From Siansivirga zeaxanthinifaciens CC-SAMT-1 (GTDB taxonomy: Bacteria > Bacteroidota > Bacteroidia > Flavobacteriales > Flavobacteriaceae), in NCBI RefSeq assembly GCF_000941055.1, contig NZ_CP007202.1, positions 2,774,437-2,838,436 on the forward strand: a stretch of 64,000 nucleotides of DNA, read 5' to 3'. The translations under genes were made by a program, and so were the position numbers. Under the pieces are notes generated by a model. That model was not told where the DNA came from. It saw only the letters and a program-made list of their open reading frames with translations, and ran no database searches. The stretch's first letter is position 1, and each line of letters begins with the position of its first letter. Below are positions 17,704 to 62,611 of this stretch, piece by piece.

Positions 17704-17741
17704 AAAAAAACAGGTAAATTTACATTTACCTGTTTTTTTTT
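17704..17741. terminator. Terminator after fumC
   Basis: AAAAAACAGGTAAAT / ATTTACCTGTTTTTT with a TTAC loop and a long T run. It lies between convergent fumC and the Crp-like gene. Confidence 0.88.
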
Positions 17742-17826
17742 GGTTGGTTAGTTTTAAATCCGAATAATTTCTTATTGGAAATCATTCAAATATATAAAAT
17801 AACAACCTCTAAATTGTTAACATTTG

Positions 17827-46918: not shown

Positions 46919-47551
46919 ATGCTTAACGAGTTAAAAGAAAATTACGGCTATCTATTTGAGGATGAACTATTAATAGAAATTAACAACGTAGGAACCTTTA
47001 AAGAAGTTTCTGAAGGTTTTCAATTAATAGATATTGGAGATTACATAAAATCTATGCCGCTTTTAATTAGTGGTGCTATAAAAATTCTTCGTGAGGATAC
47101 TAAAGGAGACGAACTATTACTTTACTTTATAGAGCGAGGCGACACCTGCGCTATGACCCTTTCTTGCTGCATGGGTCAAAAAAAGAGTGAAATTAGAGCC
47201 ATTGCAGAAACGCACACAAAACTCATAATGATTCCTGTTGAAAAAATGAGCGAATGGATGGGCAAATATAAAAGCTGGCTTAATTTTATTCTGCAAAGTT
47301 ATCATGATAGAATGTCTGAACTCTTGGAAGCCATCGATTCTATCGCCTTTTTAAAAATGGACGAACGGCTATTTAAATACCTAAAAGACAAAGCCATGGT
47401 AAATCACAACGACGTGATACAAGTTACGCACCAAGACATTGCTTTCGATTTACATACCTCGCGAGTTGTTATTTCTAGGTTACTTAAAACGTTAGAAATT
47501 GATGGTAAAATAGAACTCCATAGAAATAGCATAAAAATTATAGAACTCTAG
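46919..47551 (+). CDS. Crp/Fnr-family transcriptional activator, probable master of the GTAAC-N4-GTTAC regulon
   Basis: 210 residues: beta-roll effector domain (about 20-125) and C-terminal winged helix with recognition segment VTHQDIAFDLHTSRVVISRLLKTL (written here in two halves: VTHQDIAFDLHTS, RVVISRLLKTL). Cysteines cluster in CAMTLSCCMGQ (about 77-87), so a redox- or thiol-sensing role is possible. The gene directly precedes a set of operons that share a palindromic site in the class II activator position. This makes it the best candidate for their regulator. Its own upstream region (46716-46918) shows no copy of the site. Confidence 0.9.
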   Translation: MLNELKENYGYLFEDELLIEINNVGTFKEVSEGFQLIDIGDYIKSMPLLISGAIKILREDTKGDELLLYFIERGDTCAMTLSCCMGQKKSEIRAIAETHTKLIMIPVEKMSEWMGKYKSWLNFILQSYHDRMSELLEAIDSIAFLKMDERLFKYLKDKAMVNHNDVIQVTHQDIAFDLHTSRVVISRLLKTLEIDGKIELHRNSIKIIEL

Positions 47552-47552
47552 T

Positions 47553-47600
47553 GTTTGTAACAATTGTTACAAACAAGCCCTTACGACTACCGTAATTTTG
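47553..47600 (+). promoter_or_regulatory. Regulon site A: perfect palindrome plus promoter core (TauE/persulfide dioxygenase operon)
   Basis: A perfect 22-bp palindrome at 47553-47574 with core TGTAACAATTGTTACA. 22 nt after its GTTAC half-site comes TAATTTTG (47593-47600), an exact TAnnTTTG core. The palindrome centre is then about 43 nt before the expected start of transcription, the class II activator position of Crp/Fnr proteins. Confidence 0.85.
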
Positions 47601-50356: not shown

Positions 50357-50818
50357 ATGAAAAATTTATTAATTCTAATTACAGTTACAACATTAACATT
50401 TAGCTGTAATAACTCAAAACATGAGCATTATTCTGCTTTCGAAAAAAACTTAAAAGCAAACAACCATCCTGGAAAAAAACTTATGGAAACTAATTGTTAT
50501 GCATGCCATAGTGCAACTGCCAATGAAGAAAACAGATTAGCACCACCCATGATTGCTGTTAAAATGCGCTATTTAAAAGATAATACAACCAAAGAAGCTT
50601 TTATAAACGATTTAAAAGATTGGATGAAAAACCCTAATGCTGAAAATGCAAAAATGTATGGTGCTGTAAAACGTTTTGGTGTAATGCCAAAACAAATATT
50701 ACCTGATGAAACCATAGAAAAAATTGGAAATTACATATACGATTATGATATTGAAAAACCAGATTGGTTTGACAATCATTATAAGAAAATGCATCAAATA
50801 AATAAAAATAATGAGTAG
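50357..50818 (+). CDS. Lipoprotein cytochrome c, monoheme
   Basis: 153 residues. Lipoprotein signal peptide ending TLTFSC (Cys about 17), then one heme c site CYACH (Cys47, Cys50, His51) and a likely axial Met110 in GVMPKQ. A small periplasmic or membrane-tethered electron carrier. It overlaps the following thioredoxin gene by 8 nt, showing translational coupling. In this context it may pass electrons from sulfur or metal chemistry to the respiratory chain. Confidence 0.88.
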   Translation: MKNLLILITVTTLTFSCNNSKHEHYSAFEKNLKANNHPGKKLMETNCYACHSATANEENRLAPPMIAVKMRYLKDNTTKEAFINDLKDWMKNPNAENAKMYGAVKRFGVMPKQILPDETIEKIGNYIYDYDIEKPDWFDNHYKKMHQINKNNE

Positions 50819-51107
50819 CTTTATAGAAATAATAAATCAAGACAAACTGGTGTTAGTCGATTTTTTTGCAGAATGGTGCGGCCCATGTAAAATGATGAGC
50901 CCTATTTTAAAAGAAGTAAAAGATGCCTTAGGGACTTCGGTGTCAATTATAAAAATTGATGTCGATAAAAATCAAACTCTGGCAAGCAAATATCAGGTTC
51001 GAGGGGTTCCTACTCTAATGCTTTTTAAAAATGGTCAACCATTATGGAGGCAATCTGGGGTATTACAAAAAAATGAATTAATAGCGTTATTAAAATCGCA
51101 TCAATAA
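50811..51107 (+). CDS. Thioredoxin, canonical WCGPC
   Basis: 98 residues, a single thioredoxin domain with FAEWCGPCKMM (about 19-29) and cis-Pro in GVPTLMLF. No signal peptide, so cytosolic. Start at 50811 overlaps the cytochrome gene. A role reducing persulfides or polysulfides made by the sulfide pathway is plausible, since thioredoxins do this efficiently. It differs from the CGNC protein at 9.9 kb. Confidence 0.93.
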   Translation: MSSFIEIINQDKLVLVDFFAEWCGPCKMMSPILKEVKDALGTSVSIIKIDVDKNQTLASKYQVRGVPTLMLFKNGQPLWRQSGVLQKNELIALLKSHQ

Positions 51108-51109
51108 AT

Positions 51110-51691
51110 ATGCATTTAAATGAATCGTACTGGGAAAACAGATACCTAGCAAACGACATTGGTTGGGATATTGGCGAGGTATCACGGCCTTTAAAAACTT
51201 ATTTCGACCAGTTAAATAATAAAGATTTAAAAATTTTAATTCCTGGAGGCGGAAATGCTTATGAAGCAGAGTATCTTCTAAAACAAGGATTTAAAAATAC
51301 CGTTGTGGTCGATGTGTCTAAAACAGCATTAAGCAATCTTAAAAAACGAGTTCCAGAATTTGCTGAAAATCAATTAATACATAAAAATTTTTTCGATTTA
51401 GAAGATTCTTTCGACTTAATAATCGAGCAAACTTTTTTTTGTGCTTTAAACCCCAATTTAAGAGAAAGTTACGCTGTTAAAATGCACGAACTTTTAAAAG
51501 AAAATGGCAAGCTTGCTGGTTTATTATTTAATATTCCGTTAAACAAAACGCATCCCCCTTTTGGAGGTTCGAAAACAGAATATTTAGATATTTTTAAAAA
51601 ACTGTTCAAAATACAAATTTTAGAAACCTGTTATAACTCAATTAATAAGCGTGCTGGCAACGAATTATTCATAAAATTTGTTAAAAAATAG
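51110..51691 (+). CDS. TPMT-like thiol/halide S-methyltransferase
   Basis: 193 residues of the class I fold. The N-terminal signature WENRYLANDIGWDIGEVSRPL (here noted as WENRYL, GWDIGEVSRP) and SAM motif ILIPGGGNAYEAEYL are those of thiopurine S-methyltransferase and halide/thiol methyltransferases; FGGSKTEYLDIFKKLF ends the family core. Such enzymes can methylate hydrogen sulfide or small thiols. Given its place in this operon, methylation of sulfide to methanethiol as detoxification is my inference. Last gene of the site-B unit. Confidence 0.8.
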   Translation: MHLNESYWENRYLANDIGWDIGEVSRPLKTYFDQLNNKDLKILIPGGGNAYEAEYLLKQGFKNTVVVDVSKTALSNLKKRVPEFAENQLIHKNFFDLEDSFDLIIEQTFFCALNPNLRESYAVKMHELLKENGKLAGLLFNIPLNKTHPPFGGSKTEYLDIFKKLFKIQILETCYNSINKRAGNELFIKFVKK

Positions 51692-51707
51692 TCAAAAACA
51701 ATCGTAA

Positions 51708-51752
51708 TGTAACAAATGTTACAATTCGGTTCTTAAGTTTAGCATACTTTTA
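51708..51752 (+). promoter_or_regulatory. Regulon site C (drives a putative small RNA)
   Basis: TGTAACAAATGTTACA (51708-51723) with half-sites GTAAC/GTTAC and 4-nt spacing, then exactly 22 nt, then TACTTTTA (51745-51752), one base off the core consensus. No coding sequence starts before the terminator at 51814. Confidence 0.8.
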
Positions 51753-51756
51753 CAAC

Positions 51757-51848
51757 TCGATATCCAAGGTAAACTATTCTTAAATATACCAAGGAGATTA
51801 ATAGCAAAAATATAAAATCGTCTAATTTATAATAGACGATTTTTTTTT
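51757..51848 (+). ncRNA. Putative Crp/Fnr-activated small RNA, about 92 nt
   Basis: The segment from the start predicted by site C (about 51757) to the terminator T run (51848) has no ATG, GTG or TTG in any frame, yet it has a strong activator site, a promoter core and a strong intrinsic terminator. The body contains two CCAAGG motifs (51768-51773 and 51789-51794 approximately), the second within CCAAGGAGATT, which could pair with pyrimidine-rich target sites. cydA has a separate promoter after the terminator, so this is not simply its leader. The analogy is E. coli FnrS, an FNR-activated small RNA; no sequence similarity is claimed. Confidence 0.55.
51814..51848 (+). terminator. Terminator of the putative small RNA
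   Basis: AAAATCGTCTA (51814-51824) pairs with TAGACGATTTT (51833-51843), 8-nt loop, T run to 51848. Confidence 0.88.
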
Positions 51849-51855
51849 GTTTTTA

Positions 51856-51898
51856 GTAATAATTGTTACATAAAATCGGGTATTGTGATTTATTTTTG
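51856..51898 (+). promoter_or_regulatory. Regulon site D (cydAB)
   Basis: GTAAT-AATT-GTTAC (51856-51869), one mismatch in the left half, then 21 nt (one shorter than the other sites), then the exact core TATTTTTG (51891-51898). The expected transcript start is only ~10 nt before the cydA ATG. Confidence 0.75.
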
Positions 51899-51914
51899 TA
51901 AAAAAAACAATACT

Positions 51915-53261
51915 ATGGATGTCGAAATTTTAGCCCGAATTCAATTTGCCTTCACCATTGCTTTTCATTATATCTACCCGCCTTTAAGTATTGGGATTGG
52001 ACTTATTATGGTTATTATGGAAGGTTTATATCTTAAAACTGGAAATAAACACTACGAGGTTTTAACACGGTTTTGGTTAAAAATATTCGCCATTACTTTT
52101 GGTATTGGTGTCGCAACAGGCATTATTATGGAATTTGAATTTGGAACCAATTGGGCCGTTTATTCTAAATATGTTGGTGATATTTTTGGTAGCGCCCTTG
52201 CTGCCGAAGGATTGTTTGCCTTTGGTTTAGAAAGTACATTTTTAGGTATTTTAATTTTCGGGTGGAATCGGGTATCTCCAAGAGTTCATTTTATATCGAC
52301 CATTGGCGTTTTTTTAGGCTCCATGTTTTCGGCAGTTTGGATTGTGGTGGCTAATAGCTGGCAACAAACACCTGCAGGCTACCATATTGTTGGTGAAGGC
52401 CTCCAAGCTAGAGCCGAAGTTACAGACTTTTGGGCAATGGTTTTCAATCCGTCGAGTGTCGATAGAATTATTCACACCTGGCAAGGTGCATTTCTTGCAG
52501 GAACCTTTTTGGTTTTGAGTGTACACGCCTATTATCTTCTCAAAGGTAGATATGTTGAAATCTCAAAAAAAGCATTTAAAATAGCGCTGTCTGTTGCTAC
52601 AGTTATTTCGTTAACACAGTTAGTTTCCGGGCATAGTTCTGCCGATGGTGTTGCTGTAAATCAACCTGCAAAACTAGCCGCTATGGAAGGGCATTACGAA
52701 ACTTCAGCTCCGGCAGATTTATATTTATTTGGTTGGGTAGATGATGAAAACCAACAAGTAACAGGTTTGGGAATTCCTGGCGGATTATCATTTTTAGTGC
52801 ATCAAGATTTTGAAGCACCTATTAAAGGTTTAAATGCGTTCCCTGAAGAAGACAGACCCAGTCAAGTGAATGCGGTTTTTCAGTTTTATCATATTATGAT
52901 TTCTATAGGGATGTTTTTAATAGGCCTAACTTTATACGCCAGTTATTTATGGTGGCGCGGTACATTATTCGATAAAACCTGGCTTTTAAAGATTTTTGCT
53001 TTTTCTGTTATTTTACCGCAAATTGCCAATCAGGTTGGTTGGTTCGCTGCCGAAATGGGCAGACAGCCCTGGATTGTTTACGGACATTTAAGAACCAGCG
53101 AAGGGTTTTCACAAGAAGTTTCGGCAAATCAAATTGTATTTTCATTGGTGTTATTTTTATTAGTATATTCTGTACTACTGCTTTTATTTTTATATTCTCT
53201 GAATAAAAAGATTAAACATGGCCCTTACGATGAAGCTAAAAATGCCTTAGAAATTATTTAA
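51915..53261 (+). CDS. cydA: Cytochrome bd ubiquinol/menaquinol oxidase subunit I
   Basis: 448 residues with about nine membrane helices. Heme-ligand and quinol-site features: early FAFTIAFHYIYPPLSIG, GVATGIIMEFEFGTNW, and GRQPW at about 382-386. The periplasmic Q loop is of the short type. Start is ATG 51915 (MDVEILARIQFAF): an upstream in-frame GTG at 51885 would precede the transcription start set by the core at 51891. Quinol oxidases of this kind have high oxygen affinity and are known to resist sulfide, nitric oxide and cyanide. Operon with cydB (9-nt gap). Confidence 0.96.
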   Translation: MDVEILARIQFAFTIAFHYIYPPLSIGIGLIMVIMEGLYLKTGNKHYEVLTRFWLKIFAITFGIGVATGIIMEFEFGTNWAVYSKYVGDIFGSALAAEGLFAFGLESTFLGILIFGWNRVSPRVHFISTIGVFLGSMFSAVWIVVANSWQQTPAGYHIVGEGLQARAEVTDFWAMVFNPSSVDRIIHTWQGAFLAGTFLVLSVHAYYLLKGRYVEISKKAFKIALSVATVISLTQLVSGHSSADGVAVNQPAKLAAMEGHYETSAPADLYLFGWVDDENQQVTGLGIPGGLSFLVHQDFEAPIKGLNAFPEEDRPSQVNAVFQFYHIMISIGMFLIGLTLYASYLWWRGTLFDKTWLLKIFAFSVILPQIANQVGWFAAEMGRQPWIVYGHLRTSEGFSQEVSANQIVFSLVLFLLVYSVLLLLFLYSLNKKIKHGPYDEAKNALEII

Positions 53262-55851: not shown

Positions 55852-55989
55852 ATGACACATAGAATATCAAAGTATCAACGATTTAAAATGATGAATCCCA
55901 TTATCCAATTCTTTAGGTTTATTTACTTAAGTATAAAAATAATGGTTGTTGTTGCCGGAGGACATGGTGGCACTAGAAAAGTTCACTAA
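55852..55989 (+). CDS. 45-residue membrane peptide with GGHGGTR tail
   Basis: Begins 13 nt after the flavoprotein stop: MTHRISKYQRFKMMNPIIQF, then FRFIYLSIKIMVVVAGGHGG and TRKVH. A basic N-terminus, one hydrophobic helix (about 17-36) and a Gly/His/Arg tail. The stop codon lies inside a perfect hairpin (55983-56003). Its close spacing suggests co-transcription with the flavoprotein gene. Function unknown; a small accessory subunit of the flavoprotein or of the bd oxidase is possible. Confidence 0.6.
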   Translation: MTHRISKYQRFKMMNPIIQFFRFIYLSIKIMVVVAGGHGGTRKVH

Positions 55990-56003
55990 TACTTTATTAG
56001 TGA
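55983..56003 (+). other. Perfect hairpin across the stop codon of the 45-residue gene
   Basis: TCACTAATA (55983-55991) and TATTAGTGA (55995-56003) pair completely around a 3-nt loop; the TAA stop is inside the left arm. No T run follows, so it is not a normal terminator. Confidence 0.6.
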
Positions 56004-56022
56004 TTTTGGTTGGTTAGTTGTT

Positions 56023-56055
56023 AAAAGCACATGGGGAAACTGTGTGCTTTTTTTT
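56023..56055 (+). terminator. Terminator of the flavoprotein unit
   Basis: AAAAGCACA (56023-56031) and TGTGCTTTT (56043-56051) with an 11-nt loop and a T8 tail. Confidence 0.78.
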
Positions 56056-62510: not shown

Positions 62511-62529
62511 AAAACGTACTTAGTAAACT

Positions 62530-62611
62530 GCGTTAAGGATAGTAGTGAAAATCCTTTTTTTGCTGCCATATATGGCAAAAAAAGATTGCAACGAATAGCC
62601 TGTTAAAACGC
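62530..62611. repeat. Imperfect long hairpin between adaptor and pump genes, REP-like
   Basis: An 82-nt element bounded by GCGTT (62530) and AACGC (62607-62611). Inside, CTTTTTTTGC pairs with GCAAAAAAAG around the palindrome GCCATATATGGC, and AATC pairs with GATT. It also contains a forward GGAT/ATCC stem with a T7 tail that could act as a weak attenuator. From memory, its flanks (GATTGCAACGAATAGCC) resemble a dispersed intergenic repeat of flavobacteria; I cannot check copy number. Confidence 0.5.

Follow-up and report, generated by a model that had tools for sequence, protein, structure and literature searches.

A predicted small RNA between a methyltransferase gene and cydA in a sulfide-type and respiration cluster

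Introduction

Between a TPMT-type methyltransferase gene and cydA, in the window analysed here (the whole 64-kb stretch of DNA, taken from a single-contig genome of 3.30 Mb), a Crp/Fnr-type site and an intrinsic terminator enclose a short intergenic segment. Does this segment give rise to a small RNA of its own, does it serve as a leader of cydA, or is it just the tail of the operon that precedes it? The small RNAs of Flavobacteriaceae have been little studied. In excerpts of PMC9723704, 45 non-antisense sRNA candidates are reported from the transcriptome of one species of this family. An RNA next to cytochrome bd that is driven by a redox signal or by sulfide would, if true, offer a clear entry point to flavobacterial small RNAs.

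Results

Promoter, transcript and terminator

The features of the locus, in window coordinates, are:

46919-47551, + strand: Crp/Fnr-family regulator (cNMP_binding, HTH_Crp_2), likely activator; that it serves these sites, we infer
50811-51107, + strand: thioredoxin gene, found also upstream of the unit in G345, G427, G190 and G367
51110-51691, + strand: TPMT-type methyltransferase gene (gene annotation), the upstream gene
51708-51723, + strand: Crp/Fnr-type palindrome (site C), 0 mismatches to TGTAACNNNNGTTACA, centred near -41.5
51745-51752, + strand: -7 core TACTTTTA of the Bacteroidota TAnnTTTG type, 21 nt downstream of the palindrome
51757-51848, + strand: predicted small RNA of about 92 nt, without start codon and ending in a terminator; putative start 12 nt after the core start
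51759-51799, + strand: weak predicted 5' hairpin whose arms contain the two CCAAGG copies (51764-51769, 51789-51794); its fold alone is not significant (z -0.85)
51796-51805, + strand: GATTAATAGC, motif of the common 3' module, recognized by its recurrence before terminators
51814-51848, + strand: intrinsic terminator with an 11-bp stem (51814-51843) and T9 (51840-51848)
51855-51870, + strand: cydA's own Crp/Fnr-type site, 2 mismatches, with core TATTTTTG at 51891-51898, 20 nt after it
51915-53261, + strand: cydA (gene annotation)

The first-pass annotation had proposed that site C and its core are followed, without any start codon, by a strong terminator, and that cydA has a second palindrome and core of its own; these elements are indeed all present. 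The palindrome TGTAACAAATGTTACA is one of two perfect matches in the window, where palindromes with up to three mismatches are not clearly enriched (54 vs 43.2 expected), and TACTTTTA stands 21 nt behind it. The same spacing recurs at four window sites (47556, 49941, 54320 and 59982). Among 80 cydA upstream regions of relatives that we examined, 43 contain a palindrome with at most three mismatches, and 36 of these show the 21-nt spacing as well. According to excerpts of PMC9723704, TAnnTTTG lies at -12 to -5 in Flavobacterium psychrophilum; with the core set accordingly, site C falls at the class II activator position. Since its spacing is common to the four other window sites and to these cydA upstream regions, site C with its core looks, from sequence, like a Bacteroidota-type class II Crp/Fnr promoter.

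No ATG, GTG, TTG or CTG occurs in 51724-51846, the first being a TTG at 51847, and the proposed length of about 92 nt holds for a start 12 nt downstream of the first core base. The terminator ends at 51848 as described. By itself it is not decisive, because its stem contains only three G-C pairs and because a scan of the 14-kb stretch around the element returned 16 terminator-like sites where 7.4 are expected. The 48 nt behind ATTAATAGC fold with a z of -4.4 against shuffles. Probably this terminator is common to the small RNA and the upstream operon mRNA.

CCAAGG was correctly reported to occur twice in the RNA, at 51764 and 51789; the suggestion that these copies are target seeds did not hold up. 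The pattern GTTAC-CCAAGG-CCAAGG is found in 53 of 299 genomes and its reversed control in about 70, and the pair was rejected as a conserved feature. The repeat is also absent from the displayed sequences of the six other members of the group described below, and in the predicted fold the copies look like the facing arms of a single weak stem rather than a pair of seeds. A pairing scan of the RNA against 51 window genes gave nothing above shuffles, the best energy being attained by 48 of 200 shuffled RNAs.

Genomic neighbourhood and candidate activator

The cluster around the element encodes a Crp/Fnr-family regulator, a TauE exporter, a metallo-beta-lactamase/rhodanese protein, a cytochrome c, thioredoxin, the TPMT-type methyltransferase, CydAB and an oxidoreductase. 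Its predicted gene content marks this region as a sulfide-type and respiration cluster; the best NCBIfam match of the pyridine-nucleotide-disulphide oxidoreductase is sulfide quinone reductase, at a score far below the model cut-off. The nearest relatives of cydA come mostly from Flavobacteriaceae. The class II sites at 47556, 49941, 54320 and 59982 outline the regulon of the cluster. Elsewhere in this part of the window, a 45-aa reading frame ending in GGHGGTRKVH lies behind the oxidoreductase gene (55853-55990, +), and the Rfam Flavo-1 RNA is found at 62518-62609 (+, 61.9 bits).

Judged by position, the regulator at 46919-47551 likely activates site C, while a different activator elsewhere in the genome is possible. 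Its three cysteines are clustered in the cNMP sensor domain (DTCAMTLSCC) and none is N-terminal; hence, an FNR-like response to oxygen should not be taken for granted, a sulfide or other redox signal being as likely.

Recurrence of the unit in related genomes

Conservation upstream of cydA, by which the annotation had proposed to judge the RNA, was not found: none of the 80 cydA loci of named relatives carries site, core and TTRATAGC on either strand. Where a palindrome lies within 400 nt upstream of cydA in these relatives, it is typically part of the gene's own promoter and stands 57-69 nt ahead of the start codon. Among the places listed by a terminator scan of the 80 loci, five lie on the minus strand, and all were rejected as cydA-side units: L076 and L081 combine site and core with a frame of 99-100 aa, core and hairpin in L039 would enclose about 30 nt of RNA, and L011 and L020 are without a core. 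By direct DNA similarity, 2 of the 60 nearest genomes compared, which include no second genome of the window's genus, gave a match, namely the source genome and one with a 31-base stretch that we take for chance.

A pattern that joined site and core to a run of T7 62-92 nt further on matched 52 of 397 family genomes, its reversed version 10. We examined 48 loci from this pattern, leaving out some matches (e.g. G084, G006, G262 and G414); 17 have a GTAAC-GTTAC site and 31 a different operator, mostly TTAACAnnTGTTAA. Seven of the 17 (L133, L134, L137, L140, L165, L170 and L178), with a terminator fold of -6.2 kcal/mol or weaker, were set aside. The ten others (-11.4 or stronger), some of which contain short frames of up to 57 aa, make up with the window unit a set of 11 that was chosen without the motif and provides its unselected test: ATTAATAGC is present in four of them (window, G345, G190 and G314), against a shuffle mean of 0.0145 and a maximum of 2. 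When TTRATAGC was demanded, the pattern matched 8 of 397 genomes, comprising six units (window, G345, G248, G190, G367 and G314) and two CDS starts, and a version with scrambled motif matched none of the 397. A seventh member, G427, comes from the genus of G345. As the search patterns demand TTRATAGC or TTAATAGC, the agreement of the seven members on the motif is partly due to selection.

The unit of promoter, ATTAATAGC and terminator is hence found in six further genomes, in five genera counting that of the window, and is patchy by exact pattern (2 of the 7 genomes of G190's genus, 2 of the 6 of G345's). The flanks of the six units are:

G345, G427: thioredoxin gene directly upstream; a cydA-like gene follows
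G367: thioredoxin then methyltransferase gene directly upstream; downstream gene convergent
G190: thioredoxin then methyltransferase gene upstream, 384 nt away; downstream gene convergent
G314: rhodanese-type cluster upstream
G248: upstream gene without identification

Four of the six thus lie downstream of thioredoxin or methyltransferase genes. The downstream neighbours differ among the members; their convergent orientation in two of the seven speaks against a leader of cydA. The terminator parts of the seven members fold with z-scores of -3.7 to -7.3, and their 5' parts with a mean of -1.06, little better than shuffles; reading frames in the other six reach 40 aa.

An Rfam scan of the window at gathering score returned only tRNA and Flavo-1 and no family for the element. 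Scanned by E-value, 51600-52000 gave eight weak matches (E from 0.93 up), none of them FnrS, and among 14 loci with related units the only match was RNase P in L164, outside the unit. In this locus (from G153), a Crp/Fnr-type promoter and a short terminated unit lie near 558-677, a short way ahead of the gene for RNase P RNA (700-1008).

A 3' module shared with other loci

In 50 genomes, GATTAATAGC followed by T6 gave 86 raw matches, compared with 10 for the reversed pattern. These fall into 64 distinct places; in 34 a hairpin of seven or more pairs abuts the T run (shuffles 0.3), and 30 are without one. The hairpin-bearing module occurs in 13 of the 50 genomes, 12 of them of the window's family, with up to six copies in one genome. 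Since GATTAATAGC and terminator recur beyond this promoter, the window RNA carries a 3' module common to unrelated loci. That it shares this module with many predicted RNA ends in related bacteria is the most unexpected result of our analysis. ATTRATAGC was also considered as a generic 3'-end word and rejected as such, because none of its 27 copies in the 80 cydA loci precedes a terminator. Besides the window element, the source genome (G000) carries two modules:

C1:1521571-1521616, minus strand: intergenic unit (L195/L218) with a possible 5' hairpin, GTTGATTAATAGC and a terminator; similar units occur in G017, G019 and G005
C1:1949673-1949712, + strand: GATTAATAGC and terminator (L201), directly behind a Dps-like ferritin gene

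The latter possibly marks a 3'UTR-derived RNA. A literature search with the module sequences returned no title on bacterial small RNAs among the matches listed.

A second predicted RNA in the window

The units with a different operator form another RNA, termed type A, of which the window has one copy:

17704-17785, promoter to 17829, minus strand: predicted type A sRNA (58.4 bits with model R1; promoter by pattern match)

This copy has the same palindrome-core spacing, with the class II palindrome TTAACAAATGTTAA, and lies between a Crp-like gene and fumC, as do 18 of the 21 type A copies read. Type A is a structured RNA: in 23 aligned rows, 13 of 18 pairs changed on both sides and none of 500 shuffles scored as high, in an alignment fitted to the model, which leans towards structure. 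It has no Rfam match. Type A and the cydA-side RNA are alike in palindrome-core spacing, 5' hairpin, terminator and, in most type A units, TTRATAGC, which occurs in 27 of the 31 units with an operator other than GTAAC-GTTAC; in the window's type A copy the motif is decayed and missing. ATTRATAGC behind the 5' hairpin and before the terminator, a type A trait, is found in the cydA-side RNA at 51797-51805. Type A differs, however, in its operator TTAACAnnTGTTAA, its linker CTAACCAACC and its place between the Crp-like gene and fumC. Assignment of the cydA-side RNA to type A was rejected, as model R1 gives it 26.3 bits (E 0.011) and other terminator-like places score alike.

A further stretch of the window, GGTTGGTTAG at 56008-56017 (+), just before a terminator at 56023-56051, is the exact complement of the type A linker CTAACCAACC. 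Among the 11 units with GTAAC-GTTAC sites, those of G365, G065 and G272 hold GGTTGGTT or TTGGTTGG, the complement of the CCAACC stretch of type A (3 of 11, shuffle mean 0.05), and G392 holds the shorter GTTGGTT. A search for type A at E 0.01 came up empty in G365, G065 and G392, and the match of G272 to the type A model does not resemble a type A unit. A role of stretches of the GGTTGGTTAG type, including those in the Crp/Fnr-type units of G365, G065 and G272, as a sponge for type A is no more than a possibility.

Discussion

Altogether, promoter geometry, lack of an ORF, terminator, recurrence and the shared module, all evident from sequence, point to a stand-alone small RNA that is driven by a Crp/Fnr-family activator at site C, ends at 51848 and likely acts in trans, a reading that we consider fairly probable. 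The free RNA of the first-pass annotation is thereby upheld as a Crp/Fnr-activated, terminated, non-coding RNA, carried by the promoter geometry, the occurrence in five genera and the 3' motif; the FnrS-like logic that it had been given is plausible as an analogy only. In the mechanism that we propose, a Crp/Fnr-family activator, most likely the product of 46919-47551, would bind site C and switch on RNA polymerase from the class II position; transcription would start near 51757 and stop at the terminator at 51848. The resulting RNA would have a 5' part that varies, followed by the constant GATTAATAGC and the terminator hairpin, and would be co-expressed with the sulfide-type and cytochrome bd genes that belong to the same regulon. 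Most likely the variable 5' part would base-pair in trans, and the GATTAATAGC-terminator module may form a common handle, perhaps for an RNA-binding protein.

Could the segment instead be merely where the thioredoxin-methyltransferase operon ends, its 3' UTR and terminator, the activator site being superfluous and any short RNA a functionless by-product? From the operon's stop codon (51691) to 51814, the scan lists no further terminator-like site on the + strand, and the same genome has GATTAATAGC and terminator right behind its Dps-like gene as well. Yet site C and its core have the exact geometry of a promoter, and this is kept in six other genomes with different flanks, so that we hold this explanation to be unlikely. 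Another reading takes the segment as a leader with an attenuator, in which transcripts from site C mostly stop at 51848 and sometimes read through into cydA as a second layer of control. It would fit the position of the unit on the cydA strand, 66 nt upstream of the start codon, and also G345 and G427, where a cydA-like gene comes next and the displayed sequence has no palindrome of its own between terminator and gene. However, the terminator is immediately followed by cydA's own site and core, present also in relatives that are devoid of the unit; in G190 and G367 the downstream gene is convergent, and the single fold made contains no competing antiterminator. A leader is, in our view, likewise unlikely. 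In an AT-rich genome with common terminator-like sites and no clear excess of palindromes at up to three mismatches, a regulator site and a terminator may also meet by chance, but the site without mismatch, the fixed spacing, the recurrence and the scrambled control make such a coincidence highly improbable.

The GATTAATAGC-terminator module may be a protein docking site. As a tentative idea, which we would not rank as more than conceivable, it could dock a new RNA chaperone of Flavobacteriaceae that serves a set of small RNAs and 3' ends as the Hfq module does elsewhere, the cydA-side RNA being the member wired to a sulfide/low-oxygen regulator. With up to six copies per genome, the module offers a sequence with which a possible RNA-binding protein could be pulled down and further members of the set be located by search alone.

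FnrS of enterobacteria is a short intergenic RNA with a Crp/Fnr-family promoter and an intrinsic terminator; its activator FNR carries a [4Fe-4S] cluster and N-terminal cysteines, it represses mRNAs with Hfq, and Rfam holds it as a family. The predicted window RNA is likewise short, intergenic, preceded by a Crp/Fnr-family promoter and closed by an intrinsic terminator. Unlike FnrS, it has another operator and promoter type, has no Rfam match at gathering score and stands in a sulfide-type and cytochrome bd setting, and the N-terminal cysteines of the FnrS activator are absent from the nearby regulator. By analogy, the RNA is most likely FnrS-like in logic and not a member of the FnrS family.

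Among the literature matches listed, there was no published flavobacterial or FnrS-like RNA for this element. Closer in phylogeny, FopS and GibS are multi-copy small RNAs of Bacteroides thetaiotaomicron with a shared segment; for FopS, a terminator hairpin and association with RbpB are reported (excerpts of PMC11697453 and PMC7366714). They resemble the window RNA as multi-copy Bacteroidota small RNAs with a common segment; as far as these excerpts go, the shared sequence is different and in FopS at the 5' end, and the promoters are canonical sigma-ABfr (FopS) or of motif PM2 (GibS), unlike that of the window RNA. The R1' seed consensus of FopS, as given in the excerpts of PMC11697453, is absent from the 92-nt RNA by reading of its sequence. 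The SnoA locus of B. thetaiotaomicron also has a regulatory RNA beside a Crp/Fnr-family regulator (HcpR) and a redox gene, but SnoA is antisense to the hcp promoter and its level is independent of HcpR (excerpts of PMC13370916). Rfp18 of F. psychrophilum shares with the window RNA that it is a conserved flavobacterial sRNA with strong predicted structure, and differs in having at least three stem-loops and metalloprotease targets (excerpts of PMC9723704, whose main text does not contain the words Crp and Fnr). Set beside these systems, the cydA-side RNA is a good candidate for a genuine sRNA; its general kind is known, and the 3' module that it shares with other loci is unusual.
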